DNA of 64,000 nucleotides from Yponomeuta sedellus (Eukaryota; Arthropoda; Insecta; Lepidoptera; Yponomeutidae): contig OW203738.1 in NCBI GenBank assembly GCA_934045075.1, positions 868,001-932,000 of the forward strand, in the 5' to 3' direction. Within the stretch, counting starts at the first letter, position 1. Each line of letters starts with the position of its first letter. Below the pieces are notes generated by a model, which was not told where the DNA came from, did no database searches, and saw only the letters and a program-made list of their open reading frames with translations. The position numbers and the translations under genes are program-made. Shown in pieces: positions 2,262 through 51,883 of the stretch.

Positions 2262-2654
2262 AAAAACATATTTAGAGGCTAAAAATTCCATCCGTGCCGG
2301 TATTCGAACCCGCAACCTCTGGCTATCTCTGCCAGCGCTCTTTTCAACTCAGCTAATGGGCGACCAACTGGCATCAGTGAAATTTCGAACCTCTTTACAG
2401 TATTCTCTGTATTACGTACAGGCAGCGACATCTGGCTGAAGTAATTTGCATCACTTGCAGCCCCGAGTACGTACATTGCAGTTAGGTTTCACGTCGGAAT
2501 AATATCGCTGTACCCACCATTAGCTCAGTTGGAAAGAGCGCTGGCACGGATAGCCAGAGGTCGCGGGTTCGAATCCCGGTATGGGTGGCATTTTTAGCCT
2601 CTAAATAGGTTTTTAAAACTGTCCTTAGCACGGGTTAGTGCATTAAAAAGAATA
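2262..2654 (+). mobile_element. hpSINE copy 1 (tRNA-like hairpin SINE)
   Basis: Complete-looking copy: it opens with CATATTTAGAGGCTAAAAA, contains an antisense tRNA-like block (2283-2372), a spacer, then a sense tRNA-like block (2518-2588) with box B GGGTTCGAATCCC, and ends GGGTTAGTGCATTAAAAA. A 13-bp target-site duplication with two mismatches flanks it (2249-2261 and 2655-2667, TAATTTTGGTGTC-like). The tRNA fold has a CTGGC/GCCAG anticodon stem but a non-canonical loop, so this is not a functional tRNA gene. Confidence 0.8.
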
Positions 2655-2669
2655 TAATTTTTGTTTCGA

Positions 2670-3190
2670 CAACCGATTTCCCCTAGCTTATTTAATGCAT
2701 GACGTCAAATGGCAGGTCATATTGTCTTTATAGGTATTCAGTAGAAATATAAGAAATCACATCGTTATGAAAACAAACATTTGCCTCTCGAGCGATTCAA
2801 CTCGAGTACGAGATTCGAGACACCTACTAACCTATACGTAAGTGTCTACAATTTTTATTTGAAGGGAAGTTGGTGATGCTTAGAGCTCCGAACCTTAAAA
2901 ACGTTTTCCACTATGTTTTCCGTTCGACTCACAGAAGTCTATCAAGACACTTTATATTAAGAACGACTATCAACACTAAGTTTGGAGTTTTTTTGTCCAT
3001 TTTTTCTCCAAAATAATCTAGATTTTGAAACGGACATCTAAATTTAATTGTAACGTTCATTAAGCCGCAGCTTCTGCGCTACTTTGAATAAAACCTTTTC
3101 ATTTAATTTTATAGGAACGCGTAAAATCGAGTTGCCATTAAAACTATGCTCAGGTTAAAGTTGTGAAAAACGTTTTTCTTCTTTGATCCC
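2670..3190. other. No gene recognised
   Basis: AT-rich intergenic sequence without a convincing frame, repeat family or structure that I can name. Confidence 0.5.
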
Positions 3191-3191
3191 T

Positions 3192-3348
3192 TTACTCTTC
3201 TGTGGAGCCTGGGGCTGATGAAAGGGCTTTCCATTTATCTCTGTTTATAGCTAAGGATGGAAGCTCCAGCCAAGTTACTCCCTTCTCCTGCGTCTCAGAG
3301 AGAACAGACCTCTTCCACGATTGAGACGGTCTTCCGACCATCATCAAG
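3192..3348 (-). pseudogene. Non-LTR retrotransposon C-terminal tail, decayed
   Basis: Read on the minus strand, an open stretch of about 50 codons begins with the GRPSQSWK motif, continues through WLELPSLAINRDKWKAL and ends at a stop near 3192. Spaced tryptophans followed by GRP...W and LA.NR..WKAL are typical of the region downstream of the reverse transcriptase in insect LINEs. The rest of the LINE is missing. I infer a 5'-truncated insertion; the exact clade cannot be set from this tail. Confidence 0.6.
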
Positions 3349-3399
3349 ATAAAAAACGTAGGTAGGTGTGTAGTATGTAGATTCGATCCAATATCGATA

Positions 3400-3625
3400 T
3401 CAACCCTTGTACTACGTCCCCACTACCGGAGCACGGGTCTCTTTCTGCATCGCAGGAAGGTTTGGCCACACTCCACCCCGGGGGCCAAGTCCGGGTTGGT
3501 GGAGGATTGTAAGACAGTCGCTGGCCTTACTGTCAGAAGTTATCAAGCCGCCCATAAGGCTTCTGACATAGCTTAACAACTGCCATTACAAGACAACCGC
3601 CACTAAGGGCTTATTGTACATTGCA
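3400..3625 (-). mobile_element. 5S-SINE copy, 3' body only
   Basis: Matches the body of the 5S-SINE family (CCACTCCACCCCGGGGGCCA, GGTGGAGGATTGTAAGACAG, TTATCAAGCCGCCCATAAGG). The 5S-like head is missing or too decayed to see. Confidence 0.75.
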
Positions 3626-3715
3626 AAGCACTGAACCGCTTTACCATGGGGTCAAGTCCGGGTTGTTGAAAGTGAAACAAAGGATGTTACTGGTTATTTC
3701 AGCAGTAAAATTGAG

Positions 3716-3845
3716 TGAAATTCACCAATCCAGACTTGGCCCCCGTGGACTAATCCGGACTTGGCCTCGTGGTGGAGTATGGCCTATACATTCCTTAGGG
3801 AAGAGACCTGTGCCCCGCAGTGGGGACATAATGGGTTGATGATGA
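3716..3845 (+). repeat. SINE/LINE-tail repeat ending in GATGATGATG
   Basis: ACTTGGCCTCGTGGTGGAGT, TTCCTTAGGGAAGAGACC and CAGTGGGGACATAATGGG match 45985-46097. The sequence resembles the tail of the 5S-SINE but ends in GATGATG, suggesting a 3' end shared by several retroposons. Confidence 0.6.
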
Positions 3846-4170
3846 TGTCGACAGTCAAGGAAATGAAATTTTTTAAAAACTTTTAGACGTTCAAAAGGCA
3901 CGACCACCCACGCTAAAAGCCTAATAAAAATAACTTGGGATATATCGTAATTTTGCAAAGAAAATATTCCTAAGTACTTACGAACTTTGATTTAATTATC
4001 TTATATGAAAATAAGGTGATGTTTGAAGCGTTTAACTTGGAATTTCCACACAAGAGAAAGCTTCAGACAAAGCCTCTCAAAGTATCGACATACTTACATT
4101 ACGAGTACCTACTTGACGCGTTTTGTAATTTGGTTTAAATTTAATTTGTTTCGCTTGAACTGTTTATTAA
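3846..4170. other. No gene recognised
   Basis: AT-rich sequence between a SINE tail and a LINE remnant. I see no supported gene or repeat. Confidence 0.45.
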
Positions 4171-4177
4171 CATTATT

Positions 4178-4420: not shown

Positions 4421-4794
4421 CCTTGCGAAGAACCAGAGATGTGGCATCTGAGAAAGCGGCACTTTAAGCTTATCATGGTTATGTTTCATCATAACTGCGC
4501 TATTGCATAATTTTAGGGGGAAACTCTGTTGAAGTCGACAGAGTATTTAAAGTACAAAAAAATGCATTAGATCGGTCTGCGGAGCAGGATTCATTGATAG
4601 TTGTTAACCACTTTTCAAAAAAATTAATATTTTACCATTACCTTGCCTTTATATTTACGAAATAAGCTTATTCGTACAAAAACATCGTGACCTCTTTAAA
4701 AAAAATGTAATGTAATAAGTCGATCGATTAGATATAAGAATAAGCTCTATAAGCCTTTTCAACGACTAACTTTGTACAAAAACAACATATTCTG

Positions 4795-5758: not shown

Positions 5759-5924
5759 GTATAATATTAGACACAGTTTCATATTTAAGGGATGTAATGT
5801 AGACAAATATATTTTATTATAAAAACCTGGATTCCCGATACGTGGACAATCCAGGTTTTTATAAATAAAATATATTTGTCTACATTACATCCCTTAAATA
5901 TAAAACAGTGTCTAATATTATACT
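5759..5924. repeat. Near-perfect palindrome, about 76-bp arms
   Basis: Left arm 5759-5834, loop near CCCGATACGTGGAC, right arm 5849-5924. The arms include AAGGGATGTAATGTAGACAA and its complement. The outer end of the right arm was later used as the insertion site of the hpSINE that follows. Confidence 0.88.
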
Positions 5925-6182
5925 ATTTTTATTTTTAATGCACTAACCCGTGCTAAGGACAATTTTAAACACCTATTTAGAGGCTAAAAATTCCACCGAT
6001 GCCGGGATTCGAACCCGTGTACGTAATACAGAGAATAGTGTAAAGAGGTTCGAAATTTCACTGATGCCGGTGAGTCGCCCATTAGCTCAGTTGGATAGAG
6101 CGCTGGCACGGATAGCCAGAGGTCGCGGGTTTGAATTCTGGCATGGGTGGAATTTTTAGCCTCTAAATAGGTTTTTAAAAAT
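5920..6182 (-). mobile_element. hpSINE copy 2
   Basis: Minus-strand copy with both termini. A perfect 12-bp target-site duplication GTGTCTAATATT lies at 5908-5919 and 6183-6194. The antisense and sense tRNA-like halves are joined with an internal deletion near 6018. The sense half holds CCCATTAGCTCAGTTGG and GCGGGTTTGAATTC. Confidence 0.9.
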
Positions 6183-6267
6183 GTGTCTAATATTTTTTAT
6201 AAAAAAATTCTACGATGTAACTACAAAACACTAACAATAATAGTTAACAATAATCAAAGTATAACGT

Positions 6268-7712: not shown

Positions 7713-7935
7713 ATTATTTTTAATGTACTAACCCGTGCTAAGGGCAATTTTTAAAACCTATTTAGAGGCTAAAAATTCGACCCATGCAATTCTGTACGTA
7801 ATACAGAGAGTATTGTAAAGAGGTTCGAAACACTGATGCCGGTGACTTGCCCATTAGCTCAGTTGGGAGAGCACTGGCACGGTTAGCCAGAGGTCGCGGG
7901 TGGAAATTTTAGCCTCTAAATAGGTTTTTAAAAAA
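7713..7935 (-). mobile_element. hpSINE copy 3, internally deleted
   Basis: Both tRNA-like halves are shortened: TAATGTACTAACCCGTGCTA starts the unit on the plus strand and GCCTCTAAATAGGTTTTTAA ends it. The box B region of the sense half is deleted. I see no clear target-site duplication. Confidence 0.75.
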
Positions 7936-11970: not shown

Positions 11971-12695
11971 ATTTTAAAAACCTATTTAGAGACTAAAATT
12001 TCCACCCATGCCGGGATTCGAACCCGCGACCTTTGGCTATCCGTGCCAGCGCTCTTTCCAGCTGAGCTAATGGGCAACTCACCGGCATCAGTAAAATTTC
12101 GAACCTCTTTACAATAAGATAAGATAAAGATATTTATTGAGTCACAGACATCGGTATACATATAAAGTTAGGCTAGTTTACAGGTTGACTTATAAGTAGG
12201 TATACGTAATATTCTATCACATTAGAAACCAAGCTAGGTAGATCTTTCTAACGCCCCCCTTCGGTTATCATTAGGTCAAAATTTAAATTTAAATACAGCA
12301 AATCTAGGTAAAAACTACTTTCTTTCCTTTTTTCACTATCAGTAATCTGCTCCCACATTACGCGCACCAAATGCAGAACGATCCCATTCGTGTATTACCA
12401 AGTCCCATATAAATTACTATCATACATTTCAAGATTCTAACGGGATTCGGTGAGCGCAATTAGGTCGCAGATACGATCCAAGTTTTATTCAAATCTTTTG
12501 AAATTGCGGGTAGAACAACATTTATAAAAATAGCAACAGACCAAAAAAAAATCTTCATCAATCAGCCAAGATGCACTTTGATTAATGACAATCAGTAGAT
12601 AGTCCACAATAGCCCGACCTTTATGATAACTTACTCATTACCCATTACCATTCTCTGTATTACGTATACGGGTTAGGTAGTGCATTAAAAAGAAC
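11971..12695 (+). mobile_element. hpSINE copy 4, split by a LINE insertion
   Basis: The left part (11971-12112) has AACCTATTTAGAGACTAAAA and the antisense tRNA-like block. After an interruption the right part (about 12646-12695) resumes with ATTCTCTGTATTACGTATAC and the terminal GGTTAGGTAGTGCATTAAAA. Confidence 0.7.
12113..12645 (-). mobile_element. LINE 3' end inserted into hpSINE
   Basis: On the minus strand the block ends AATAAATATCTTTATCTTATCT-like (within 12113-12140), a usual LINE 3' terminus with short TTATC repeats. The two sides are exactly adjacent positions of the hpSINE consensus (TTTACAATA / TTCTCTGTATT), which shows nested insertion. No intact coding part is visible. Confidence 0.6.
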
Positions 12696-14187: not shown

Positions 14188-14344
14188 TAACTATTTAGAG
14201 GCTCAAAATTTCACCCATGCCGGGACTCAAATCCGCGCCCTCTGGCTAACCGTGCCAGAGGTCGCGGGTTCGAGTCGAGTGGAATTTTTTGCCTCTAAAT
14301 AGGTTTTCAAATTGTCCTCAGCTTGGTTAGTGCATTAAAAAGAC
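14188..14344 (+). mobile_element. hpSINE copy 5, short form
   Basis: Antisense and sense tRNA-like halves are joined directly inside the anticodon arm (CTAACCGTGCCAGAGGTCGC). The flanks read TATAATATTAGTAGG (14173-14187) and TATAATATTTGTTAGG (14345-14360), an imperfect duplication of about 15 bp. Confidence 0.75.
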
Positions 14345-14880: not shown

Positions 14881-15245
14881 CGTTATCAACCCTTGTATGT
14901 CCCCACTGCTGGGGCACGGGTCTCTTCCTGCATCGCAGGAAGGTTAGGCCATACTCCACCACGGGGGCCAAGTCCGGGTTGGTGGAGGATTGTAAGACAG
15001 TGGCGGGCCTTACTGTCAGAAGTTATCAAGCCGCCCATAAGGCCTCCGACATGGCTTAACGACTGCCATTATATGACAGCCGGCACCAACGGCTTAACGT
15101 GCCTTGCGAAGCACGGAAGCGCTCGGTAAAATGCCACTAGCGGTAGTCACGGGACGCTCACCCATCCCGCACCTGACCGCGCCTGTTGTTGCTTAACCAA
15201 GTGATTGATTCCAATCACTCGGTTCGTCTAGGCCACGAGCGCTTC
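14881..15245 (-). mobile_element. 5S-SINE, full length
   Basis: Flanked by ATAAAATAAAA on both sides (14870-14880 and 15246-15256). It is almost identical to the copy at 9955-10319, so probably recent. Confidence 0.88.
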
Positions 15246-15515
15246 ATAAAATAAAAAATCAAACTTAATTAATCAAAAATACCGCCCCGGGACACACCCG
15301 ACCCAAAAGTTCCCATGACGCTAGCAGCATTACCCCGTTGCACCGCCAGGGAGATCCTTTGCATCAGGTATGCCCCGGAACGAACGTCATACCCCCGACT
15401 CCTCAGGCGCCGACCGATCCCCGAATAAAAAGTTTTGCCTCATCCCCCCATACCCCCATTGTTTCCACGGCCAGTGGGGCGAACAAATAGTGACGCATAA
15501 GCTGGCTATACTTCC
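15246..15515. other. No gene recognised
   Basis: Contains C-rich, unique-looking sequence (CGCCCCGGGACACACCCGAC near 15283). I find no supported gene. Confidence 0.35.
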
Positions 15516-16041: not shown

Positions 16042-16232
16042 ATTTTGGTGCTGTTTCAGCAGCAACACCCGCAGTCGCAGCAGTCACACCCAAATGGGAA
16101 GGCGCAAAGGTGTAGTATTGGTTTTTATCTGAATAAGAAGCATTCGATACAAAATTTGTTTCGTTGCTTGACAAAGATTGAGCAGCTCTGCCAATTCCTT
16201 TCAAGGTAGTACAAAAATTACTTAGTAGTTAC

Positions 16233-16544
16233 ACTATTTTTATTTTTAATGCACTAACCCGTGCTAAGGAAATAAAAATAGTGTAATCATGTGGGTACAG
16301 TGATATCGTTCCGATGTTAAACCTAACTGCAAAGTAGGTAGTCGGGGCTGTAAGTAATGCAATTTGCTTAAGTCAGATGTCGCTGCCTGTACGTAATACA
16401 GAGAATATTGTAAAGAGGTTCGAAATTTCACTGATGCCGTGAGTCACCCATTGGCTCAATTGGTAGAGCGCTGGTACGGATAGCCAGAGGTTGCGGGTTC
16501 GAATCCCGACATGGGTGAAATTTTTAGCCTCTAAATAGGTTTTT
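16233..16544 (-). mobile_element. hpSINE copy 6
   Basis: A perfect 13-bp target-site duplication ACTTAGTAGTTAC (16220-16232 and 16545-16557). The body is a single sense tRNA-like unit, but the terminal 40 bp are inverted (ACTATTTTTATTTTTAATGC against AATAAAAATAGTGTAATC), so even this copy has inverted ends. Confidence 0.9.
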
Positions 16545-16559
16545 ACTTAGTAGTTACCA

Positions 16560-19082: not shown

Positions 19083-19255
19083 AAAAACCTTAAAGGCAAA
19101 AAATTTCACCCATGCCGGGATTCGAACCTCTGGCTATCCGTGCCAGCGCTCTACCAATTGAGCCAATGGGCGACTCACCGGCATCAGTGAAATTTTGAAC
19201 CTCTTTACACTATTCTCTGTATTACGTACAGGCAGCGACATCTGGCTTACGCGAC
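19083..19255 (+). mobile_element. hpSINE copy 7, 5' half
   Basis: Antisense tRNA-like block with ATGCCGGGATTCGAACCTCT and the following CAGGCAGCGACATCTGGCTT. The sense half is missing. Confidence 0.75.
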
Positions 19256-20023: not shown

Positions 20024-20281
20024 GAACTGATTAGCATTTATATAATACTAGAAGCTTAACTGATTAGCATTTATATAATACTAGAAGCTTAACTGATTAT
20101 CATTTATATAATACTAGAAGCTTAACTGATTAGCATTTATATAATACTAGAAGCTTAACTGATTAGCATTTATATAATACTAGAAGCTTAACTGATTATC
20201 ATTTATATAATACTAGAAGCTTAACTGATTAGCATTTATATAATACTAGAAGCTTAACTGATTAGCATTTATATAATACTA
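20024..20281 (+). repeat. 33-bp tandem array, 8 units, 99-bp higher order
   Basis: The unit reads AACTGATTAGCATTTATATA then ATACTAGAAGCTT. Eight units follow one another almost without change. The only variable site (GATTAG or GATTAT) runs G,G,T,G,G,T,G,G, so expansion went by blocks of three units. Confidence 0.92.
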
Positions 20282-20478
20282 GCTGTGCCCCGCGGTGTTA
20301 CCCGAGGTTCATCGATTTTCCAAAGCGAATAAAATATTTTCCTGCTGTTAAACATAGCTTATGTGTTAATCAAGGATATTAGCTAACTTGATACCAACAT
20401 CGCTCCAGCCGTTTAGACGTGAAAAAGTATCAAACATACACACTAACAAACTTTCGTTTTTATAATATTATTTATTCT
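20268..20478 (+). mobile_element. Helitron-like non-autonomous element
   Basis: Begins AATACTAGCTGTGCCCCGCG, contains GCTCCAGCCGTTTAGACGTG and ACACACTAACAAACTTTCGT and ends at TTTTTATAATATTA. The combination is typical of short Helitron-type elements in Lepidoptera. Its first bases coincide with part of the tandem unit upstream. Confidence 0.6.
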
Positions 20479-23200: not shown

Positions 23201-23311
23201 AAATACCATACTCCATACTATATAATTAGCTAGTGCTTCGATTAAAAAGGATGTGAAATACCACCTGAACCAGTGTCACACAACATTGAGGATCAACATT
23301 GGAGTATCGTT

Positions 23312-23622
23312 ATACTATTTTTATTTTTAATGCACTAACCCGTGCTAAGAACAATTTTAAAAACCTATTTACAAGCTAAAAATCCCACCCATGCCGGGAT
23401 TCGAACCCGCGACCTCTGGCTACGTAACTGCAAAGTAGGTACTCGGGGCTGTAAGTGATGCAATTTACTTCAGCCAGATGTCGCTGCCTGTACGTAATAC
23501 AGATAATAGTGTAAAGTGGTTCGAAATTTCACTGATGTCGGTGAGTCACCCATTAGCTCAGTTTGAAAGAGCGCTGGCACGGATAGTCAGAGGTCGCCGG
23601 TTCGAATCCCGGCATCGGTGGA
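23312..23622 (-). mobile_element. hpSINE copy 8, main part (split by the LINE)
   Basis: Holds the inverted terminus (CTATTTTTATTTTTAATGCA), a short antisense tRNA-like half and a full sense tRNA-like half ending at GGAATTTT. The remaining 30 bp lie at 28141-28171, beyond the LINE. The duplication AGTATCGTT at 23303-23311 and 28172-28180 belongs to this SINE. Confidence 0.88.
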
Positions 23623-23884
23623 ATTTTATTTTTTTATTTTTTTTTTTATTTTTTTATTTTATTATTTATCAAAGCCCACAGCACAAAACAATATAAAATA
23701 AGTAAATAAATGTAGGCCAAACATAGGCCAATTACGGACTAATATTTTTTTATACTAATCTTATTTACGAAACACAAAGCAGGCAACAGAGTTGCCTGGT
23801 CTTAGTTATATTAAACAAGGTTTTGAATACCAAAATTAAGAATATCAAAATCAACATAATTCATGCAAAACATTTCGGCGCCTG

Positions 23885-23947
23885 TATGTGTATGTAAGTG
23901 TGTGTGTATGTGTGTGTGAGGGTGTGTTTGTGTGTGTGTGAGAGAGA
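23885..23947 (+). repeat. GT-rich microsatellite in the LINE 3' region
   Basis: TGTATGTGTATGTAAGTGTG and further TGTG runs, ending in GAGAGAG. Confidence 0.7.
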
Positions 23948-23972
23948 TTGAAGAGAAAGTCTGAAGTTCAAG

Positions 23973-26918
23973 TTATTTGATGTTTTTTATGGTTTTTATG
24001 ACCTGGTGTCTGAAAGCTTCTTGAGATACATGAAATATATCAATGTCTGAAAAAGATTGATTATAAGTTTTTGGCAAGCGACAACTTATGGAATTCTGAG
24101 CGTAATTCGTGTGGACAAAAGGAACGTGAAAGAGACTGCGGATATCATGTCTAGTGCGAGTAGATGGGGCTCGTAAATTTAATAAAGTATTAACTAATTC
24201 AGGACTGTCAGCAATGCCGTTGCAGATTTTGTATAAAAACTGCATGTCTAAGACTATACGCCGATCAATAAGAGTCATAATGTTATGCCTCTGACAAGAA
24301 GTCAAATAGTCGTCGTTGGGGTAACCAGATCTGTAATTAAGATGACGTAAAAAAATTTTCTGAAGTCGCTCAACTAGATCTTGATAAATAATATACTGCG
24401 GATTCCAAATACAACTGCAGTACTCCAATATGCTTCTAACATAAGCATAGTACAGAACGCAGAGACTTTTTGGGTTTTTGAAAGGTTTACTGACCCTAAG
24501 AATAAAACCCAGACTTCTAAAAGCCCTGTTAGTGATAGCCTCAATGTGATCCTGGAATGTTAGCTTAGAGTCTAAAAGCACTCCCAAATCACGTATTGAA
24601 GTAACTTTTTGAATTTGTGAAGTATTGATATAGTAAATGTGGTTGATAGGTTTGGTACTCCTCGTAAAACTGACTTGATTACACTTCGCAGCATTAACGT
24701 TGATCCTGTTATTAAGATAATATATTGTCAAGCGATTAAGATCCTCTTGCAGATGAAGACAGTCCTGAGTCGATTTGATTCTCATGTAAATTTTCTTATC
24801 GTCAGCAAACAAGAGAAACTTAGCATGCCTAAAACAATTTCCAATATCGTACAGATAGGCTACATAGAGGAGCGGTCCCAATATTGACCCTTGCGGGACC
24901 CCAGACGGTACAGGGATAAAATCAGACTTTAGATCACCTATTACTACTGCCTGACTTCTGTTGTTGATATAAGATTCAGTCCAGCGGAGCAGATCACCTC
25001 TAATGCCTAGCATTTCAAGTTTCTGTAATAGTATTATGTGATCCACGCGGTCGAACGCTTTCTCAAAGTCAGTGTAAATTACATCTAATTGTCCTCCGCC
25101 ATCCATACCCCTGAGAATAGCATCAACGAAAATAGCAAGATTGGTAGTAGTTGATTTATGTCGCACAAAACCATGCTGTTCACTAGGTATATTGAGAGAA
25201 ATGTTCGAGTAAATATGGTTATGTACCACCTTTTCCATTACCTTGCTGAAAACGTTTAAAATTGAAATAGGCCTGTAATGTTCTACGTGAATCTTAGCAC
25301 CTTTCTTATGTACCGGAACAATATGTGCTACCTTCCAAATTTCCGGTACCACTCCTTCTCGAAACGATTTATTAAAAATTATGGCTAATGGTTTAACAAG
25401 TGATACGGCACAATTAGTCACTAGTATAGAAGGAATTCCGTCACTGCCAGGTCCCTTACTTTTATCAATATTGCTTAGCAATTTGAGAAGGTAGTCTTCC
25501 GACACCTCAACAGATGATAAAACTTGTAGATGTGAAGGTTCAGGCAAATCCATTCTAGAGTAAGAATCGGCAGGGACACTAAACGTTTTACCAAAGTATT
25601 GACTAAATGCGTTGCAAATATCTAGTTGAGTAGTGAGTATTTTAGTATCGTAATTCATGTTTTTGGGGTAACCAGATGCGTCCTTTCGACGCGATCTTAC
25701 GTAAGACCATACAAGCTTAGGATTGTGTTGTATACCTTCTTCGGCTGATTGTATATGTTTAGCAAAACATTCCTCCAGCACTCTTTTTTGTCTTCTACGT
25801 AAGAGGCTGAAGGCATCATAATCTGAGGGATTTTTATGCTTTTTCCAAAATTTATGATACTTTGTTTTCTCCTTAATTATGTTTATTAGCGCCTTACTGT
25901 ACCACACAGGGTATTGATATGAATTACTAGCCAATACCTTAGGTACGAATCTATCAATTGCTTCATGAAGACACGAGTACAATTGGGAGACCGCCTCATC
26001 CACCGTGCCTCCGGCAAGATTGGACCAATCATAATTCGAGATGTGTTTATTGATAGCTATGTAGTCTCCCTTTGGAAACTTATACTTAAGACTTTTAGTA
26101 ATTGGTACAGTTGCAATCGAGATATCGACCGACTCAATTTCCAGAGCTGGGTGGAAGCGATCTTCATCAACAGCAGGGGTAAGAGCCACACAAATCTCCA
26201 CAGCAAAGTTAGAAAATACCAGATCCAAAACGTTGCCACAGCTATTTTTAAATTTATTAGATTGATTTAACCCCAGGAAACTCATATGATTAACCAACTC
26301 TGTAGCAGAATTCTGTATTTCAATCGAGCCCCTTTTTATGCATAACGGTTCACCTAAGTCCCAGTTCAAACACGGTAAATTAAAATCACCCAATATCATG
26401 AAATAGTCATCGGAGTGACATTGCGTGACGTTACTAAGTGCCTCAAGAAAATTGTTTACTCGTAGGGGTAGGTTACGATCAGGAGGTATATATACGAGTG
26501 CAATATGTAGGTTGCGTTGGGCACCCAACGTTTCCCTTGGAATAGTCAGCCAGAGACATTCGTGATCGTCGCGCTGCCAGTCCGTTTGTGCGCGCGCGCA
26601 AAGTGAGTGTGTAACAAGCGCCATCACGCCACCGCCCGCTCCAGGCGTGTCACGGTCCCTACGAAATACCTGGTAATGATTGAGGTCGGTTAATTCAGAA
26701 TTTAAAATGCTGCTGCAAAGCTTAGACTCGGTGACAAGAACAATTTCATAGTTAAAGCCTGACATACTGTTATAGAAAGTTGTCGTTTTGGTTCGCAATC
26801 CATTTACATTTTGGTAAAATAAGCGCAATTTATCGAATTTTATAATTACTTTTAAATTTATAATCTGAGCATACTGTGGTATGTGACAACAATGGATTAT
26901 GACCCAACCAGCGACCAC
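23973..26918 (-). CDS. LINE ORF2: AP endonuclease and reverse transcriptase
   Basis: 981 codons, open throughout. The endonuclease part (about residues 30-260) shows YQNVNGLRTK, VTESKL and LGDFNLP near residue 176, the usual Mg-binding positions of the apurinic-endonuclease fold that nicks the target. The reverse transcriptase (about 470-760) shows SKGPGSDGIP, VHKKGAKIHVEHYRPISIL, YTDFEKAFDRVDH, SGVPQGSILGPLLY and FADDKKIY near residue 702, where the FADD box carries catalytic aspartates. The C-terminal part has RSILEYCSCIWNP. Order and spacing fit the Jockey/CR1 group. The first methionine is plausible but its N-terminal 25 residues are not conserved-looking. Whether the copy is active depends on ORF1 and its promoter, both damaged here. 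Confidence 0.95.
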   Translation of the reverse strand: MVAGWVIIHCCHIPQYAQIINLKVIIKFDKLRLFYQNVNGLRTKTTTFYNSMSGFNYEIVLVTESKLCSSILNSELTDLNHYQVFRRDRDTPGAGGGVMALVTHSLCARAQTDWQRDDHECLWLTIPRETLGAQRNLHIALVYIPPDRNLPLRVNNFLEALSNVTQCHSDDYFMILGDFNLPCLNWDLGEPLCIKRGSIEIQNSATELVNHMSFLGLNQSNKFKNSCGNVLDLVFSNFAVEICVALTPAVDEDRFHPALEIESVDISIATVPITKSLKYKFPKGDYIAINKHISNYDWSNLAGGTVDEAVSQLYSCLHEAIDRFVPKVLASNSYQYPVWYSKALINIIKEKTKYHKFWKKHKNPSDYDAFSLLRRRQKRVLEECFAKHIQSAEEGIQHNPKLVWSYVRSRRKDASGYPKNMNYDTKILTTQLDICNAFSQYFGKTFSVPADSYSRMDLPEPSHLQVLSSVEVSEDYLLKLLSNIDKSKGPGSDGIPSILVTNCAVSLVKPLAIIFNKSFREGVVPEIWKVAHIVPVHKKGAKIHVEHYRPISILNVFSKVMEKVVHNHIYSNISLNIPSEQHGFVRHKSTTTNLAIFVDAILRGMDGGGQLDVIYTDFEKAFDRVDHIILLQKLEMLGIRGDLLRWTESYINNRSQAVVIGDLKSDFIPVPSGVPQGSILGPLLYVAYLYDIGNCFRHAKFLLFADDKKIYMRIKSTQDCLHLQEDLNRLTIYYLNNRINVNAAKCNQVSFTRSTKPINHIYYINTSQIQKVTSIRDLGVLLDSKLTFQDHIEAITNRAFRSLGFILRVSKPFKNPKSLCVLYYAYVRSILEYCSCIWNPQYIIYQDLVERLQKIFLRHLNYRSGYPNDDYLTSCQRHNIMTLIDRRIVLDMQFLYKICNGIADSPELVNTLLNLRAPSTRTRHDIRSLFHVPFVHTNYAQNSISCRLPKTYNQSFSDIDIFHVSQEAFRHQVIKTIKNIK

Positions 26919-27140
26919 CGTGATACAAGCAACAACAGGAATTTAAGATTAATTCAGGTTTTTTCTTCAGTGTAGGTGAGTGAGCAAAAACTTTAAATAT
27001 TGAGTTAAACGTGTAAAGTGCAGTGTAGTGTATTGTGTTCGTGTTTGTGTTTGTGAATGATGGTGAATTTCTTAGTAGTATTATTGGCAGCACCTTACAA
27101 ACTATTGATAATTGTAAGTACATAAAATAAACACAAAAAA

Positions 27141-28140
27141 TCAAGACACAATTTTCTTCAGGTCTGTTTCTGTTGAGATAGGTATCGCCGGCGATTTGTC
27201 GTTTCTCCGTACATATATACGACAGTTTTTTGTCCATGTATAGTGAAAAGCGCATTCCTTTGCTTTTGCTTTACAGGCTTGCAAAAGTTTTTTGTTATTT
27301 AGCGTCAGGTGTTCGTTGACGTATATGCGGGTAGATTCACCACTAAAGCCCAGCTTGGCTGTGTACAAGTCACGGCATTTGCGCGCCAATGAGTATACAA
27401 GGTCTTTTGTTTTCCTCTGTCTGAAACGTACGATAAGCGAGCGCGGACGACCAACTATTGGTCGGAATGGCTGTACACGGTGTGCAAATTCGATGTCGTT
27501 AGTAGCGAGTTCGACACCAATAATTTTTGCAATTTTTTGTACTAATCCTTCGGTGGATTCACCTTCCGACTCGGGGATCCCACTAAGCTCGAGGTTTTGT
27601 AGACGCGCCCATTGTTGCTGTTGATGACTTTCACGTTCGAGCGTAGCAAGACGCACTTCCATGCCTTTGCATTGGCTAAGCAAGTTTTTGTTCTCCGACA
27701 AAGCAGCCTTGACTTCAGAGTCGCTTTTGTTTAGTGACGCCCTCAACTTTTCATTTTCACCTCTCACCTCAGTTAAACTAGATTGCAACTTAGCCATCCG
27801 GACTTTAAAGGATTTTAGTTCGGCGCTTATTACTTCACGTACTATTATTGGTAGTTCTTCTTTTATAATGCGAAGGATATCAGCTCGGAGTTGTGAAGAA
27901 TAACATGAACTCACTGGTATCTCAGTAAGGGAGGGCTGTGTGTCGCTAGATGTTACAGTTGTAGGCCTCCGGTGCGTGATGTTAGGTTCATCTACTGCGC
28001 TAGGTTTTACAGGAGTGTTACTATTGTCCCCTCTGGGCTGTTTGGACTTACATTGAGGACATTTCCAAGCTACCTGATTTTTAAAATTATGTTCCGTTAG
28101 ACCAACACATAAGTAGTGGAATAGTTGCGAGCATGACCGC
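27141..28140 (-). CDS. LINE ORF1, 5'-truncated: PHD-like finger, coiled coil, FP25K-like domain
   Basis: The LINE part of this frame begins inside a PHD-type zinc finger: CSQLFHYLCVGLTEHNF and WKCPQC remain, but the first Cys pair is gone. A long charged heptad-like stretch follows (LRASLNKSDSEVKAALSENK), a probable coiled coil for trimer or multimer assembly. The C-terminal part (IYVNEHLTLNNKKLLQACK, WTKNCRIYVRR) resembles the C-terminal domain of baculovirus FP25K proteins, a domain I know from ORF1 of insect LINEs. ORF1 proteins bind the element RNA. The frame stays open upstream to a start at 28197-28199, but those roughly 20 codons are hpSINE and flanking DNA, not LINE. It ends 222 bp before ORF2. 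Confidence 0.85.
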
Positions 28141-28171
28141 TTTTTATCCTCTAAATAGATTTTTAAAATAA
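28141..28171 (-). mobile_element. hpSINE copy 8, remaining terminus
   Basis: TTTTTATCCTCTAAATAGAT then TTTTAAAATA is the hpSINE end displaced 4.5 kb by the LINE, followed by the AGTATCGTT duplication at 28172-28180. Confidence 0.85.
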
Positions 28172-28180
28172 AGTATCGTT

Positions 28181-31949: not shown

Positions 31950-32149
31950 NNNNNNNNNNNNNNNNNNNNNNNNNNNNNNNNNNNNNNNNNNNNNNNNNNN
32001 NNNNNNNNNNNNNNNNNNNNNNNNNNNNNNNNNNNNNNNNNNNNNNNNNNNNNNNNNNNNNNNNNNNNNNNNNNNNNNNNNNNNNNNNNNNNNNNNNNNN
32101 NNNNNNNNNNNNNNNNNNNNNNNNNNNNNNNNNNNNNNNNNNNNNNNNN
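31950..32149. other. Assembly gap (200 N)
   Basis: Exactly 200 undetermined bases. The left side is inside a SINE-B and the right side enters a large palindrome, which may explain why assembly failed here. Confidence 0.99.
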
Positions 32150-33599: not shown

Positions 33600-33945
33600 T
33601 GTAAACTTAAAAGGAAGATTCGACCCTATCATTGTTACCACTGTTATATATAATATTTTTTTATTTTATATTTGATATTCAATAAACATTTGCTAAATTT
33701 GTCGGAGTTCAATCTCCAAACGACTGCACATAGTGTATCTCCCTCTTTTTATTTTTCGCTCCCTATACTAAAAGTATCTGTCCATTCCCGTTACTTTGCA
33801 TCCATTGCAAAGGTCTGTTATTTTTTATGTCGTAGCTCAATTTAAGGCTGGGCGTACCTCTAAAATAGATGTTAAAATTGATTATAGTTATGATGACGAT
33901 TAAATTGGCCTTTTTTTTGCATCTACTTAATGAGATGATTTATAC
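33600..33945. other. No gene recognised
   Basis: AT-rich; no supported feature. Confidence 0.4.
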
Positions 33946-33949
33946 AGCG

Positions 33950-34308
33950 TCCAGTGGTATCTTCACTCACACTAGATAGATGAAGGGACCACTCCGACGC
34001 TGTAGTGCCTGGGACATGGTTTTATAGATGGTGTAGGCTTGCCCAGCACCTATACCACCCTGACAGCTTAGTCGGCCTAGCCCACAGGAAAGACTAGTCA
34101 ATACGTGCGGAGCCAACCAAGCCGCGGGTTTCCTCACGATGTTTTCCTTCACAATTAGCGTGTGGTATTGCGACTACAAATTCGCAAATGTACGTAACTT
34201 AGGAATTAAACAAAGTCATTGGTACATGCCCGCACTCGGGATCGAATCTGGGGCTCTCGCTTGCCAGTCCATGGTTCTACCCACTGAGCTACTACCGCTT
34301 CCAATGAT
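33950..34308 (-). mobile_element. SINE-C, near full length (tRNA-derived)
   Basis: On the minus strand: tRNA-like head GCGGTAGTAGCTCAGTGG with box B GGTTCGAT-like sequence, then the core GAAGGAAAACATCGTGAGG, then ATAAAACCATGTCCCAGGCA. It matches 55757-56150 over about 350 bp. Confidence 0.8.
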
Positions 34309-34380
34309 GACGATATTATTAAAAAAATACGAACTTGAGTCTTAATCGTAACTAATTGGTATTTGAGCTATCCTGAGTTT

Positions 34381-34647
34381 TTTTTAATGCACTAACCCGT
34401 GCTAAGGACAATTTTTGCGCTCTTCCAACTGAGCTAATGGGCGACTCACCGAAGTGATGCACATTACTTCAGTCATATGTCTCTGCCTGTACGTAATACA
34501 GAGAGTATTGTAAAGAGGTTCGAAATTTCACTAATGCCGGTGAGTCACCCATTAGCTCAGTAGGAAGAGCGCTGGCACGGATAGCCAGAGGTCGCGGGTT
34601 CGAATCCCGGCATGGGTGGAATTTTTAGCCTCTAAATAGGTTTTTAA
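34381..34647 (-). mobile_element. hpSINE copy 9
   Basis: Inverted terminus TTTTTAATGCACTAACCCGT, a shortened antisense half, then a complete sense tRNA-like half (CACCCATTAGCTCAG to CGGGTTCGAATCCCGGCATG). No clear target duplication. Confidence 0.8.
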
Positions 34648-35224: not shown

Positions 35225-35236
35225 AAAAGGAGTCAA

Positions 35237-35481
35237 TTTTAAAAACCTATTTAGAGGGTAAAAATTCCACCCATGTCGGGATTCAAACCCGCGAACTCTG
35301 GCTATCCGTGCCAGCGCTCTTCCAATTGAGCTAATGGGCGACTCACGGCATCAGTGAAATTTCGAACCTCTTTACACTATTCTCTGTATTACGAACATGC
35401 ATGGGTGGAATGTTTAGCCTCTAAATAGGTTTTTTAAATTGTACTTAGCACGGGTTAGTGCTTTAAAAATTGAAATAGTAT
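35237..35481 (+). mobile_element. hpSINE copy 10
   Basis: Perfect 12-bp duplication AAAAGGAGTCAA at 35225-35236 and 35482-35493. The antisense tRNA-like half is complete, while the sense half is reduced to GCATGGGTGGAATGTTTAGC and the terminal tail. Confidence 0.9.
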
Positions 35482-35489
35482 AAAAGGAG

Positions 35490-35756
35490 TCAAACTAAAA
35501 TACTATTGTGCGAATCAAACACCAATTGTTTCAAGTAATGTTGAATTAAACAACGTGTAAGAGGCACAGAAATAGATGGAAACTAAAGTAATAAATATTC
35601 CCATTAGTGTTATAGCCTAGAGACTGTTATGTATCACAACTTTAGCTATAACTTAGTACAAATCGTACCCAATTGTAAGCATGCCTAAGTGGGTATCATG
35701 TATGAGACAAGCCCTAAACGTATAAAGAACTACATGGACGCAATAAAGTTACTGGT
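35490..35756. other. No gene recognised
   Basis: Unique-looking AT-rich sequence. Confidence 0.35.
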
Positions 35757-36195
35757 AGTTAGCCAGTGTCGGCTAGGTCTACCTCACGATGGGCTGTTTG
35801 AGAGAGCGGAATGGGAGGTGAAGTGAATGGACTTACTTGGTGATGGTGGATGATGGCTCGCTTTAGCTGTTGGGCAGATGATGAGCGGTGATGGATGAGC
35901 TGATGCGTCCAGCGTACGGAGAACACTCCTGCACTGTTCACTTATAGTCTAATATTGTCAATATATTGTTCTTTGAGCTGATAATGTTTCTTGGTCACCA
36001 AATGTCTATCACTCCACGAGAATTCGAGCACTTATCACGCGCGTATGTCACAGTGCGAATGTGTATGCAGATGGCTGGATAAATTAGTAGCGAGCAAGCG
36101 GCACGAGTGACGGCACCGGGGCGACCAGAATAATGAACAATGAGTGACCACAGATTCATGATTACGTCGCGTCGATTCTCGCTCGAACAGTTACG
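35757..36195 (-). mobile_element. LTR-retrotransposon-like leader, copy 2
   Basis: Inverted relative to 955-1391 and about as long. It contains GATAGACATTTGGTGACC on the minus strand. Neither copy is attached to gag or pol, so both are remnants of the same 5' region. Confidence 0.45.
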
Positions 36196-38117: not shown

Positions 38118-38125
38118 ATTCAACA

Positions 38126-38278
38126 ATGATTATACTATTTTTATTTTTAATGCACTAACTCGTGCTAAAGACAATTTTAAAAACCTATTTAGAGGCTGAA
38201 AATTCCACCCTTGCCGGGATACGAACTCGCGACCTTTGGCTATCCGTGGAATTTTTAGCCTCTAAATAGGTTTTTAAA
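38126..38278 (-). mobile_element. hpSINE copy 11, minimal form
   Basis: Only about 150 bp: the inverted terminus, part of the antisense half and the terminal GTGGAATTTTTAGCCTCTAA. It is flanked by ATTCAACA at 38118-38125 and 38279-38286. Confidence 0.75.
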
Positions 38279-38338
38279 ATTCAACATATTATTATGTGCA
38301 AGTGATCTGTGAGTATAGTGAAATAACAACAACGCAAC

Positions 38339-41660: not shown

Positions 41661-41673
41661 AATAAATAATTAT

Positions 41674-41911
41674 AAAAACCTATTTAGAGGCTAAAAATTT
41701 CACCAATGCCGGGATTCGAACCCGCAACCTCTGGCTATCCGTGCCAGCGCTCTACCAATTGAGCCAATGGGCGACTCACCGGCATCAGTGAAATTTCGAA
41801 CCTCTTTACACCATTCCCTGTATTACGTACAGAGAATTTTTAGCCTCTAAATAGGTTTTTAAATTTGTCCTTAGCACGGGTTAGTGCATTAAAAATAAAA
41901 TAGCGTAATAG
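41674..41911 (+). mobile_element. hpSINE copy 12
   Basis: AAAAACCTATTTAGAGGCTA, a complete antisense tRNA-like half and terminus GGGTTAGTGCATTAAAAA. Flanks ATAATTAT at 41666-41673 and 41912-41919 are consistent with a target duplication, though AT-rich. Confidence 0.82.
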
Positions 41912-43940: not shown

Positions 43941-44139
43941 CAACGGAAAGTTGCTGAAGGAAATAAGAGGCGGGTAGTCGGTGCAAATATGAATATATTA
44001 ATACACTACTTATATAAATAACAATATTACATAAACAGTTACACACATAGTTACGAGTATGATAATTGTACGACAAAGTCCAGTAGAGATTTTGTTTTTG
44101 CACACAGATGTATACGTGGAATGTTGGCAGTCAACTCAT

Positions 44140-44607
44140 TTAAAAACCTATTTAGAAGCTAAAAATTCCACCCATGCCGGGATTCGAACCCGCAACCTCT
44201 GGCTATCCGTGCCAGCGCTCTACCAATTGAGCCAATGGGCGACTCACGGCATCAGTGAAATTTCAAACCTCTTTACACTATTCTCTGTATTACGTACAGG
44301 CAGCGACATCTGACTTAAGCAAATTGCATTACTTACAGCCCCGACTACCTACTTTTTTGAAATTTGAAATTTCACTGATGCCGTGAGTCGCCCATTGGCT
44401 CAATTACAGCCCCGACAAGCTACTTTTTTGAAATTTGAAATTTCACTGATGCCGTGAGTCGCCCATTGGCTCAATTGGTAGAGCGCTGGTACGGATAGCC
44501 AGAGGTTGCGGGTTCGAATCCCGGCATGGTTGGAATTTTTAGCCTCTAAATAGGTTTTTAAATTTGTTGCTTAGCACGGGTTAGTGCATTAAAAATAAAA
44601 ATAGTAT
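44140..44607 (+). mobile_element. hpSINE copy 13, long hairpin form
   Basis: Perfect 11-bp duplication AGTCAACTCAT at 44129-44139 and 44608-44618. It has both complete tRNA-like halves, antisense first. Between them a 73-bp segment (ending GTCGCCCATTGGCTCAATT) is tandemly duplicated (about 44330-44475). Confidence 0.92.
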
Positions 44608-44618
44608 AGTCAACTCAT

Positions 44619-46296: not shown

Positions 46297-47190
46297 TTTT
46301 TAGGGTCCCGTAACTCAAATGGAAAAATGGAACCGTTATAGGATCGCTTTATTGTCCGTCCGACCGCCCGTCTATCAAGAGACTTATCTCCGGAACGCGT
46401 GGAGATACCTCCACGCATTTGAGTTTAAATTAAAACCGCATACAAAAGTCTACAGTCCCATGAAGTTGTAAAAATATCAATATTGTAAGCTTAAGCAAAA
46501 ACATAGTAACAACTATATATGCTTATATTCTTTTTAATGCACTAACCCATGCTAAGGATAATTTTTAAAACCTATTTAGAGGCTAAAAATTCCACCTATG
46601 CCGCTTAGTGTATTAAAAAGAATATAATCATGTGGGTACAGCCACATCATTACGATGTTAAAACCTAACTGCAAAGTAGGTACTCAGGGCTACAAGTTAT
46701 GCAAATTAGTTCAGTCAGATGTCGCTGCCTGTAAGTAATACAGAGAATATTGTAAAGAGGTTCGAAATTTCACTGATACCGGTGAGTCGCCCATTAGCTC
46801 AGTTGGAAAAAGCGCTGGCACAGATAGCCAGAGGACGCGGGTTCGAATCCCGGCATGGGTGGAACTTTGAGCCTCTAAATAGGTTTTTAAGATTATATAT
46901 GCGGCAAAAAATTCTTTATTTTGACACTGAAGGGAATCAAAATTCATTTAGTACTTTTCATTGACGTAGAACTATGAAATTTAATCGGTAGTATTGTCGT
47001 GTACTACAAACACCGGAAGAAATTTGAAATTTATACGTGCATCTGTAATTCAATAACAAAAAATATTTGTAGTTCGGGATTGACTTGGAAATACCTTTGA
47101 GTCTCGATACCTACACTATTGGCAATTATATACCTAGAACTTTTATAGAACCCTCGGTACCCGAGTCCAACTCGCACTTGGCCGGTTTCT
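46297..47190 (+). repeat. Dispersed lepidopteran repeat, split by hpSINE
   Basis: TTTTTAGGGTCCCGTAACTC starts the unit and CCAACTCGCACTTGGCCGG ends it. The hpSINE at 46523-46893 was inserted into it. Confidence 0.72.
46523..46893 (-). mobile_element. hpSINE copy 14
   Basis: Flanked by TATATATGC at 46514-46522 and 46894-46902. The inverted terminus (CTTTTTAATGCACTAACCC) is followed by a short antisense piece and the complete sense unit. Confidence 0.85.
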
Positions 47191-47436: not shown

Positions 47437-47528
47437 TTTGCTAAACATCGTATTGTTTAGTAGCCTCGTTGGCTAGAAAAAATTCTTAAAATTAGTACAT
47501 AAAAGCGAACTTAGAAGTTAAGGCTCTA

Positions 47529-47703
47529 TATACTCTACTCTTTACCTAATACAGAGAGTATTGTTGTAGGAAAGAGAGAAAATTGAAAGTTTCACTGATG
47601 CCGGTGAGTAGCTCAGTTGGAAGAGCGCTGGCACGGGTAGCCAGAGGTCGCGGGTTCGAATCTTGGCATGGGTGGAATTTTTAGCCTCTAAGTAGGTTTT
47701 TTT
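47529..47703 (-). mobile_element. hpSINE copy 15, truncated
   Basis: Flanked by TTAAGGCTCTA at 47518-47528 and 47704-47714 (11 bp, perfect). It keeps the sense tRNA-like half (GTAGCTCAGTTGGAAGAGCG, GCGGGTTCGAATCTTGGCAT) and lacks the usual A-rich terminus. Confidence 0.85.
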
Positions 47704-47728
47704 TTAAGGCTCTACTATTCTAACTTGA

Positions 47729-48563: not shown

Positions 48564-48609
48564 TACGAAAGAATACCGCCATCAAAATGTGGCACCCATG
48601 TATCATTAA

Positions 48610-49365: not shown

Positions 49366-49370
49366 TTTGG

Positions 49371-49527: not shown

Positions 49528-49588
49528 TGTGTTTCGTAACAAAATGCATGATTCGCACCAATTTCCTAAATAGAATTTAAGACAAAGA

Positions 49589-49760
49589 GCTACATTCCTT
49601 TCTCAACTCTAGTCACTACATAGTGACTAGAATTGAGAAAAGAATGTTGCTTTGATTTGGACTTGTGGAGAGGATGAGGAAAGAAAGATTGACGAAACAA
49701 ATATATATTGCAAATGTAAATGCAAGGCACATCCCAGGCGAACATACATCGACCAAATTC
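49589..49760 (+). pseudogene. LINE C-terminus, WFGHVER family, with inverted 5' end
   Basis: 49616-49760 codes for part of the RIEK-ML-FG-VE-RKERLTKQIYIAN region, decayed. Its first 27 bp are inverted just upstream (TTTCTCAACTCTAGTCACTA against TAGTGACTAGAATTGAGAAA), making a hairpin with a 3-bp centre. Confidence 0.7.
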
Positions 49761-49937
49761 TCCACACAAAATTCAAAAAAACCTGCATGCTACTATTCAT
49801 TTACAAATGGAAGTAAACTTTAATGTATTCCATCCTAATATTGTGAAATAAAATAAGAAAAATATTCTCACGTACTGAATTCACGTTTAATATCAAGGTA
49901 CAACATTATGAACCGCTCGTGATCGTGAAGCAAGTGA

Positions 49938-50275
49938 GAGGCGCTCGTGGCCTAGTCAAACCGAGTAATTGGAATCAATCACTTGTGCTTCGCAAGTCAC
50001 GTTAAGCCGTTGGTGCCGGCTGTCATATAATGGCAGTCGTTAAGCCATGTCGGAGGCCTTATGGGCAGCTTGATAACTTCTGACAGTAAGGCCCGCCACT
50101 GTCTTAATATCCTCCACCAACCCGGACCGGCCCCTGTGGTGGAGTATGGCCTAACCTTCCTGCGATGCAGGAAGAGACCCGTGCCCCAGTAGTGGGGACA
50201 TACAAGGGTGGATAACGAACGGACGAACTTGAGTTAAGCAACTACAGGCGCGGTAAGGTGCTAGATGGGTGACTG
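49938..50275 (+). mobile_element. 5S-SINE, rearranged
   Basis: The head (GGCGCTCGTGGCCTAGTC) is followed by a deletion that removes most of the 5S-like block. That block appears instead downstream at 50236-50275 (GTTAAGCAACTACAGGCGCG, GATGGGTGACTGA). Confidence 0.75.
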
Positions 50276-50375
50276 AGATGAGTATATTGAATTATAATAG
50301 ATATGCAGCATTTTTTAAAATATTTAAGTCATTTCGAAAAAACGAAAAAACTTAACAACATTTAAATTAAACAGG

Positions 50376-50594
50376 GATATCCATAACGTAAACACTAGAA
50401 ACAGAAACGAAATTGCTTTATCTAAACTCAGATAAGCCAAGGTAAATGCATCTTTTGTAGGACTAAGTGTACGTTTTTACAATAAAATTCCAGAACATAT
50501 TCTATACCTGCCTGAAAGCAAATTTAAAAAATTCATTAAAAAGGCCTATTATAGAAAAGATCACTTTATAAATGATGTAAGCCCTTGGCAGTAG
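50376..50594 (+). pseudogene. LINE ORF2 C-terminus (CR1/Jockey-like)
   Basis: Seventy-two codons with one internal stop read RDIHNVNTRNRNEIALSKLR-like, then VNASFVGLSVRFYNKIPEHI, LPESKFKKFIKKAYYRK and INDVSPW before the stop. The block (S+RFYNK+P..I..LP...FK..+K......Y....++) is the typical C-terminus of insect CR1/Jockey reverse transcriptase proteins. It comes from a different LINE than the one at 23.6-28.1 kb, whose C-terminus differs. The rest of the element is missing. Confidence 0.7.
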
Positions 50595-50754
50595 ACCAAT
50601 TCCACAACGAGTAAATTATATGTAGCAACCGAATCACTGCAATCCTCAGTGTTAGTTATGTCATATTTTAAGTTTGTACAGACGACGTGATTGCATTATT
50701 AGTAAATATATCATACATTCTATAACTGACAAAAACTTAATCTGCAGGTTTGCT

Positions 50755-50905
50755 AAAGGTCATTCGAATGGTGGCGTGGTGGCCGGGTCATCTATCTCCC
50801 TCCAAAAAGGTTGAGACTGATAATGGCTGACCTCTGCGTTATGCTCGTGAACGAGTGCTGTTCGTGTGTCTGGCCGCAGCACTTGTCATGTTTTCACGGC
50901 CTATG
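50755..50905 (-). repeat. Dispersed repeat shared with 13265-13375
   Basis: TCATCTATCTCCCTCC, AATGGCTGACCTCTGCG and CTCGTGAACGAGTGCTG match, inverted, ATGGCTGACCACTGCG-like and CTCGTTCACGAGCATA-like boxes at 13265-13375. Confidence 0.6.
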
Positions 50906-50929
50906 CAAAAAAATAATAATAATGCCTTA

Positions 50930-51883
50930 CACCATTTTTATTTTTAATGCACTAACCCGTGCTAAGGAACAAATTTAAAAACCTATTTAGAGGCTAAAAA
51001 TTTCACCCATGCCGGGATTCGAACCCGCAACCTCTGGCTATCCGTACCAGCGCTCTACCAATTGAGCCAATGGGCGACTCACGACATCAGTGAAATTTCG
51101 AACCTCTTTACAATATTCTCTGTATTACGTACAGGCAGCGACATCTGACTTAAGCAAATTGCATTACTTACAGCCCCGACTACCTACTTTGCAGTTAGGT
51201 TTAACATCGGAACGATATCACTGCACCCACATGATTACACCATTTTTATTTTTAATGCACTAACCCGTGCTAAGGAACAAATTTAAAAACCTATTTAGAG
51301 GCTAAAAATTTCACCCATGCCGGGATTCGAACCCGCAACCTCTGGCTATCCGTACCAGCGCTCTACCAATTGAGCCAATGGGCGACTCACGACATCAGTG
51401 AAATTTCGTACGTAATCTGTACGTAATACAGAGAATATTGTAAAGAGGTTCGAAATTTCACTGATGTCGTGAGTCGCCCATTGGCTCAATTGGTAGAGCG
51501 CTGGTACGGATAGCCAGAGGTTGCGGGTTCGAATCCCGGCATGGGTGAAATTTTTAGCCTCTAAATAGGTTTTTAAATTTGTTCCTTAGCACGGGTTAGT
51601 GCATTAAAAATAAAAATGGTGTAATCATGTGGGTGCAGTGATATCGTTCCGATGTTAAACCTAACTGCAAAGTAGGTAGTCGGGGCTGTAAGTAATGCAA
51701 TTTGCTTAAGTCAGATGTCGCTGCCTGTACGTAATACAGAGAATATTGTAAAGAGGTTCGAAATTTCACTGATGTCGTGAGTCGCCCATTGGCTCAATTG
51801 GTAGAGCGCTGGTACGGATAGCCAGAGGTTGCGGGTTCGAATCCCGGCATGGGTGAAATTTTTAGCCTCTAAATAGGTTTTTA
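50930..51883 (-). mobile_element. hpSINE copy 16: 954-bp palindromic tetramer
   Basis: Two hpSINE units in one direction (50930-51412) face two in the other (51415-51883), making arms of about 470 bp around 51413. A single 12-bp target duplication AATAATGCCTTA (50918-50929 and 51884-51895) flanks the whole, so the tetramer inserted as one unit. Each tRNA-like block has CATTGGCTCAATTGGTAGAG and GCGGGTTCGAATCCCGG. Confidence 0.93.

Follow-up and report, generated by a model that had tools for sequence, protein, structure and literature searches.

A tRNA-Ser-derived, SINE-like retroposon of Yponomeuta sedellus with inverted arms, probably twin-primed from a clonal, circular repeating RNA

The 64,000-nt stretch of Yponomeuta sedellus contig OW203738.1 analysed here (the window; the assembly comprises 657.5 Mb in 57 contigs) is interspersed with copies of a repeated element built on a 308-nt unit that carries a transfer RNA (tRNA)-like module, and most copies consist of two arms of that unit in opposite orientations. 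The reading that we favour, with reservations, is a tRNA-Ser-derived, non-autonomous retroposon resembling a short interspersed element (SINE), for which a clonal, probably circular, repeating RNA would be copied from both ends of the target by twin priming. Our confidence is evenly divided over the more specific description of a viroid-like SINE, that is, a tRNA-derived SINE that would use a small circular RNA formed without a known ribozyme and, through twin-primed rolling-circle reverse transcription, would leave near-clonal back-to-back arrays. The unit, its A and B ends, the flanking duplications, the variable junctions, the variants common to both arms and the near-identical multi-unit arms can be read off the DNA itself.

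All copies were mapped onto a 308-nt unit taken from positions 51577–51884 of the window; the 308-nt spacing of repeats is found both in the window and in arrays genome-wide. Two outer ends recur: “A”, which is TTAAAAATAAAAATAGTATAA or variants of it, and “B”, which is GGTTTTTAA. The small stem-loop at unit 276–289 keeps all four of its pairs in most copies, a matter of conservation only, as no compensatory changes were seen in it. The tRNA-like module is internal to the unit instead of forming its 5′ end, and contains RNA polymerase III (Pol III) box sequences by which the element would qualify as a tRNA-derived SINE; with 13 Rfam tRNA matches and 11 ARAGORN tRNA-Ser calls in the window, the original prediction of a tRNA-like retroposon holds. 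Similarity within the window is well beyond chance (E 2.6e-136 for the copy at 16270), and exact matches on both strands number 14 for the start motif and 11 for the end motif. The circular fold of the unit has a z score of −5.0 against 60 shuffles. Rfam matches to mir-2513 and MIR869 were not taken as microRNAs: both fall under the gathering score, and the mir-2513 match scores equally on both strands, as a palindrome-like sequence would. No relatives of the element were found in plasmids, and no exact motif matches in IMG/VR or prokaryote genomes; such absences are to be expected of an insect element and say nothing on its novelty.

The window holds 17 copies, 13 of them inverted with two arms and four in one orientation (copies or fragments). 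All 13 two-arm copies have one A and one B outer end in constant polarity; the B ends of the copies at 23310 and 50930, which lie outside the first mapped stretch, were assigned by hand. The constant polarity had been predicted correctly, while the predicted number of at least 16 inverted copies was too high, the copies at 11973, 19083, 47540 and 56471 being in one orientation. To the window were added twenty 10-kb stretches, placed around 20 of 40 listed probe hits (264 kb in all), in which 41 of 69 clusters are two-orientation, and five stretches of 10 kb from arbitrary places, making 314 kb with 73 copies, 43 two-orientation and 30 one-orientation. Single orientation, the usual form of a tRNA-derived SINE, accounts for 30 of 73; setting aside the 20 probe-hit copies leaves 30 of 53 in two orientations. 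The 50 kb of arbitrary stretches contain only three copies, two of them two-orientation, and the genomic copy number is uncertain. Outer ends are unlike in 34 of the 43 two-arm copies (A/B), the others being BB (two), AA (two), an undefined end with A (four) and a 5′ end with A (one); at least 34 unlike ends among 38 has a probability of 3e-7 under an independent, even draw of ends. The 30 one-orientation copies comprise 16 that are B-ended, 13 that are A-ended and one fragment.

Flanking sequences were compared for 68 of the 69 copies of the 264 kb, one copy at a locus edge being omitted. An exact flank match of at least 12 bp was found at 18 of the 68 copies and at 0 of 4,556 mispaired flanks, and one of at least 10 bp at 25 of 68, as against 0.7% of mispaired flanks; 30 of 68 have no exact 8-bp match. 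Two-arm copies with an exact match of at least 9 bp number 28, and, with the A end oriented to the right, the first base of the duplication is A at 20 of these 28 and the base before it is A or C at 23 of them. In the window, the nine exact duplications of the original prediction are all present where they had been placed, while those at 2249/2655 and 14173/14345 are visible only as inexact matches, as predicted. Target duplications are thus of variable length, as in tRNA-derived SINEs, and they point to target-primed reverse transcription, in agreement with the predicted reverse-transcriptase-driven insertion. Two opposed arms stand between one duplication, as do the two opposed cDNAs (complementary DNAs) of an L1-type twin-primed insertion, and the insertions look like single events. 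A control repeat of the same 264 kb was mixed in orientation in only 3 of 51 clusters, compared with 41 of 69 for the element, which speaks against a general assembly fault. This control, about 366 bp long and mostly in one orientation, occurs at 14881–15246 of the window and in 18 other clusters.

Between the two arms of a copy, 216 of 234 informative cells match, compared with 24,154 of 42,401 (57%) when arms from different copies are paired, the informative sites having been picked from the very copies compared. Inner junctions vary from copy to copy, both in the window and in the 314-kb sample, which suggests that the hairpin is formed anew at each insertion; most simply, it would be made each time from a non-hairpin, repeating template. 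Nor do the arms form fixed halves, their inner limits varying among copies. Often one arm holds parts of the unit missing from the other, as in the copy at 5917, where the A arm reaches unit 211 and the B arm starts at unit 105; the second arm is therefore no copy of the first. Microhomology, which L1-type twin priming would lead one to expect at most inversion junctions, was assessed at 44 arm junctions, of which 18 overlap by at least one base and four abut. Fixed left and right halves, as in a dimeric SINE, were considered and rejected: successive units within an arm agree at 45 of 47 informative cells, with no consistent left/right difference.

Longer structures are built from the same unit. 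Searching the genome for two 13-base unit starts spaced 285–305 bases apart returned 4,260 exact neighbouring-unit pairs (2,182 forward and 2,078 reverse) and none with the reversed control. Among the first 100 listed places, on a single contig, lie 61 chains of two to six unit starts, and six pairs of chains stand back to back, each with the minus chain before the plus chain; the sole plus-minus neighbour pair among them sits between two minus-plus palindromes. Tandem units of about 150–450 bp, as in non-long-terminal-repeat (non-LTR) retrozymes, are thus present. Seven stretches picked for arrays (L034–L040) contain arms of up to about six units: 1,291 and 1,261 nt in L034, 1,675 and 1,080 in L035, 1,267 and 1,136 in L036, 773 and 808 in L040, 41 and 1,189 in L039, and one arm of 1,872 nt in L037. 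The L038 array is cut by the end of its stretch; the six complete arrays all have duplications of 10–14 bp, the longest mispaired match being 8.

Within an array the units are nearly clonal, those of the two arms having almost all of their insertion's variants in common. Some variants occur in every unit, at position 138 in L034 (8/8), 119 in L035 (9/9), 96 in L036 (7/7) and 21 in L040 (4/4), and in both arms where the array has two; other array variants miss one unit, and many are common to a whole young subfamily. The joints between units are uniform in L034 (8/8, with an extra A of its own), L036 (7/7), L037 (6/6), L038 (5/5) and L040 (4/4), and L039 has three joints alike, a fourth match being the arm junction. 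Units are 99.2% identical between opposite arms of one insertion, 99.0% within an arm and 97.9% between insertions. The variant 96A has 90 matches in 65 clusters and occurs in both orientations in nine of these, each minus then plus. From these clonal arrays we infer a circular RNA; a circle would account for the near-clonality of the units, the uniformity of the joints and the unrestricted length of the arms.

Taken together, a model for the insertion emerges. The template would behave like a 308-nt unit repeated without end, for which a small circular RNA is the simplest candidate. At a staggered break, one target strand would prime at A, an AT-rich stretch directly 3′ of the stem-loop, and the second would prime at B (UUUUUAAAA), directly 5′ of the stem-loop, on a template of the same kind. 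Extension from both primers would run the same way along the unit, in some cases for several rounds, and the two cDNAs would be joined at a variable point, giving an antisense arm, a junction and a sense arm between duplications of about 8–15 bp. We infer an RNA template and its circularity, the identity of the acting reverse transcriptase, the sequence of events, and what A, B and the stem-loop do.

Several observations weigh against this model. The two BB copies and the 16 one-arm B copies require a variant of it. Half of the junctions (22/44) have extra or unaligned bases instead of overlap, and arm lengths are uncorrelated (rho −0.18, p 0.32, n 32, two of the 34 A/B copies with more than two segments being omitted; rho 0.10 once five arrays are included). 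Arm ends cluster at unit 98–108 (15 of 114; p 1.4e-5 on a uniform expectation). In L035 only four of eight joints are alike, the rest differing mainly in A-runs, and only 27 of 41 units have their nearest match outside their own arm in the sister arm alone, ties being counted as misses. The variant 96A is private neither to L036 nor to any other single locus, and its presence in one unit of six in L037 demonstrates that units within an array can differ. The array stretches were chosen, not random. Searches of whole units on both strands matched no Rfam ribozyme family at E up to 10. Of the 15 clustered arm ends, 13 belong to B arms, and examples in the window lie at 6018, 7792, 41832, 47540 and 51417; they may mark the 5′ end of an RNA, a site of cleavage or a strong stop.

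In the main rival, twin priming would act on a linear RNA of several units transcribed from an existing genomic array, with no circle at the insertion step. Arrays are common in the genome and could be transcribed, and with 96A in 65 clusters an array could have parents; on the other side, T-runs in each unit are able to stop RNA polymerase III, the outer ends remain A or B even in long arrays, and a variant spread through all units of the first array would still need explaining. Source flank carried along was not noticed in the end alignments, no search having been aimed at it. We regard this rival as unlikely, though as one to be taken seriously. Template jumping from the end of one linear monomer RNA to the next, a mechanism proposed for R2, would together with twin priming fit the way in which the A end adjoins the unit start, as if the 3′ and 5′ ends of an RNA met; this is improbable given joints identical within each of five arrays, among them L034, whose own extra A is present in all eight of its joints, and only 2 of 114 arm ends at unit 1–10.

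Equally improbable is that a hairpin RNA is itself copied as the unit, with reverse-transcriptase jumps between arms altering the junctions. Such an RNA would explain the fixed outer ends and the variants common to both arms; against it speak the variable inner junctions, the existence of one-armed copies of either end type with duplications, and multi-unit arms, and the original prediction of the hairpin as the copied element is not supported. From transcribed loci a long hairpin RNA may still arise. Long palindromes can be artefacts, and an assembly or amplification artefact, or later recombination of neighbouring copies, would produce inverted arms without any special insertion; that a single duplication flanks both arms, that arm lengths and junctions vary, and that the control repeat is so rarely mixed (3/51 against 41/69 clusters) make this very improbable. 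Least probable of all is snap-back, in which the first cDNA folds and copies itself. The unlike ends of A/B copies, and second-arm parts absent from the first, exclude it for copies such as 5917, and it is kept for the two AA copies (L027:1866–2150 and L032:7349–7714), where 40–59 bp of flank are inverted too; these come from a different event, as if a cDNA had snapped back and gone on copying into the target. No 6-bp duplication was found at the L027 copy.

Table 1. Copies of the element in the window and landmarks of the reference unit
Feature	Positions	Strand	Details
Two-arm copy	2262..2652		B left / A right; imperfect duplication
Two-arm copy	5908..6194		A left / B right; duplication GTGTCTAATATT
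Two-arm copy	7714..7932		A left / B right; 8-bp duplication not found
One-arm copy	11973..12116	-	B end
Two-arm copy	14191..14341		B left / A right; imperfect duplication
Two-arm copy	16220..16557		A left / B right; B arm crosses unit joint; duplication ACTTAGTAGTTAC
One-arm copy	19083..19252	-	B end, diverged
Two-arm copy	23303..28180		A left / B right; split by a long interspersed nuclear element (LINE); duplication AGTATCGTT
Two-arm copy	34378..34647		A left / B right; A arm with internal deletion
Two-arm copy	35225..35493		B left / A right; duplication AAAAGGAGTCAA
Two-arm copy	38118..38286		A left / B right; duplication ATTCAACA
Two-arm copy	41668..41909		B left / A right; 9-bp duplication ATAATTATA
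Two-arm copy	44129..44618		B left / A right; 71-bp internal duplication; flanks AGTCAACTCAT
Two-arm copy	46514..46902		A left / B right; B arm crosses unit joint; duplication TATATATGC
One-arm copy	47518..47714	+	unit 104 to B; duplication TTAAGGCTCTA
Two-arm copy	50918..51895		arms each longer than one unit; A left / B right; duplication AATAATGCCTTA
One-orientation fragment	56471..56560	-	no recognised end
Reference 308-nt unit	51577..51884	+	unit 1 = 51622; B end = unit 264 = 51884; unit 265-308 = 51577-51621
tRNA-Ser-like module	51785..51853	+	anticodon GGA per ARAGORN; Rfam tRNA 38 bits
Small stem-loop	51589..51602	+	GCAC-GGGTTA-GTGC; unit 276-289, between B and A
B end	51866..51884	+	CCTCTAAATAGGTTTTTAA
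A end region	51600..51624	+	GCATTAAAAATAAAAATGGTGTAAT; reads through into following unit here

Three copies of the window differ from their predicted form. The copy at 47518/47704 has its duplication and is one-armed, not inverted; that at 23303/28172 has two arms and a duplication and is interrupted by a LINE of about 4.5 kb; and that at 50918–51884, also two-armed with a duplication, has more than one unit per arm, its arms measuring 482 and about 469 nt. The LINE (23973–28199, minus strand) carries a 981-aa endonuclease/reverse-transcriptase frame and a second frame with a Baculo_FP domain, and the organisms named among 120 listed of 288 relatives of its protein are Lepidoptera. Elsewhere in the window, a palindrome at 22056–22587 (184-nt arms, 95% complementary) encloses a 135-aa frame (22127–22534) that we take to resemble the start of a mariner-type transposase. 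Also present are a 33-bp tandem repeat (20025–20282; 7.8 copies, 98% matches), a perfect TACA repeat (53104–53338; 58.8 copies), two dispersed pairs of long inverted repeats, 95% complementary (33914–34303 / 55754–56143 and 1013–1391 / 35753–36131), and a scaffold gap of 200 N (31950–32149).

Inverted arms, short length and a non-coding sequence are also properties of miniature inverted-repeat transposable elements (MITEs) and foldback DNA transposons. The element differs from these in its variable duplication length, unlike outer ends and variable arm lengths; symmetrical terminal inverted repeats and a fixed duplication length were not found. HaSE1 of Helicoverpa armigera, a tRNA-derived SINE (PMC3272025), resembles the element in its tRNA-like module, length of a few hundred bases, AT-rich 3′ end, variable-length duplications and high copy number. 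In contrast to SINEs of this type, the element is mostly inverted with two arms, often multi-unit, with its tRNA-like module internal; the main text of that paper mentions neither inversion nor tandem (term counts of 0).

Inverted ends are indeed abnormal for a SINE, as originally predicted: in one study 5′ inversion affected 639 of 2,068 L1, 4 of 477 SVA and 1 of 5,554 Alu insertions (PMC2912911), compared with an inverted share of 43 of 73 copies here. L1-type twin priming likewise places two opposed cDNAs per insertion between duplications, with the 3′ end at one edge and an internal site at the other (PMC2912911); the element differs in its near-constant second priming site, B, and in its overlapping arms of several units each. 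Metazoan non-LTR retrozymes are tandem 150–450 bp units with hammerhead ribozymes that are expressed as circular RNA (PMC7229834), and they resemble the element in unit size, self-pairing, tandem arrangement from dimers up and G+C content (under 45%; 43.5% for the unit here) (PMC7229834, PMC7761336). The template is shown to be circular there, whereas here a circle is proposed from the arrays. The element also differs in lacking a hammerhead or other Rfam ribozyme (no type I hammerhead was found in the unit, and the word CTGATGC of the hammerhead test occurs only once), in its tRNA-like module and in its back-to-back arrays, which are not described in the available text of PMC7229834, where “inverted” occurs 0 times. 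The Helenus and Ajax terminal-repeat retrotransposons in miniature (PMC10886601) similarly have a Pol III-type gene module (tRNA-like or 5S) in a repeated mobile unit, with direct LTRs and 4–5 bp duplications as opposed to the inverted arms and 8–15 bp found here.

The element works like a mixture of a SINE, L1 twin priming and a retrozyme; judged by the hammerhead it is no retrozyme, and it departs from the usual SINE plan. Such a SINE was not found described in literature titles and abstract openings, with Repbase, Dfam and subscription papers lying outside the search. If the twin-primed circle is the true template, SINEs would be joined with circular-RNA retroelements, and it would follow that RNA circles can form without a known ribozyme. 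Twin priming would also have left thousands of natural records in the genome, with a near-fixed second priming site and single-source arms, from which the poorly known second half of target-primed insertion could be read in the sequence. Many loci of the moth would then be able to yield long double-stranded RNA, which would probably trigger silencing by small RNAs.

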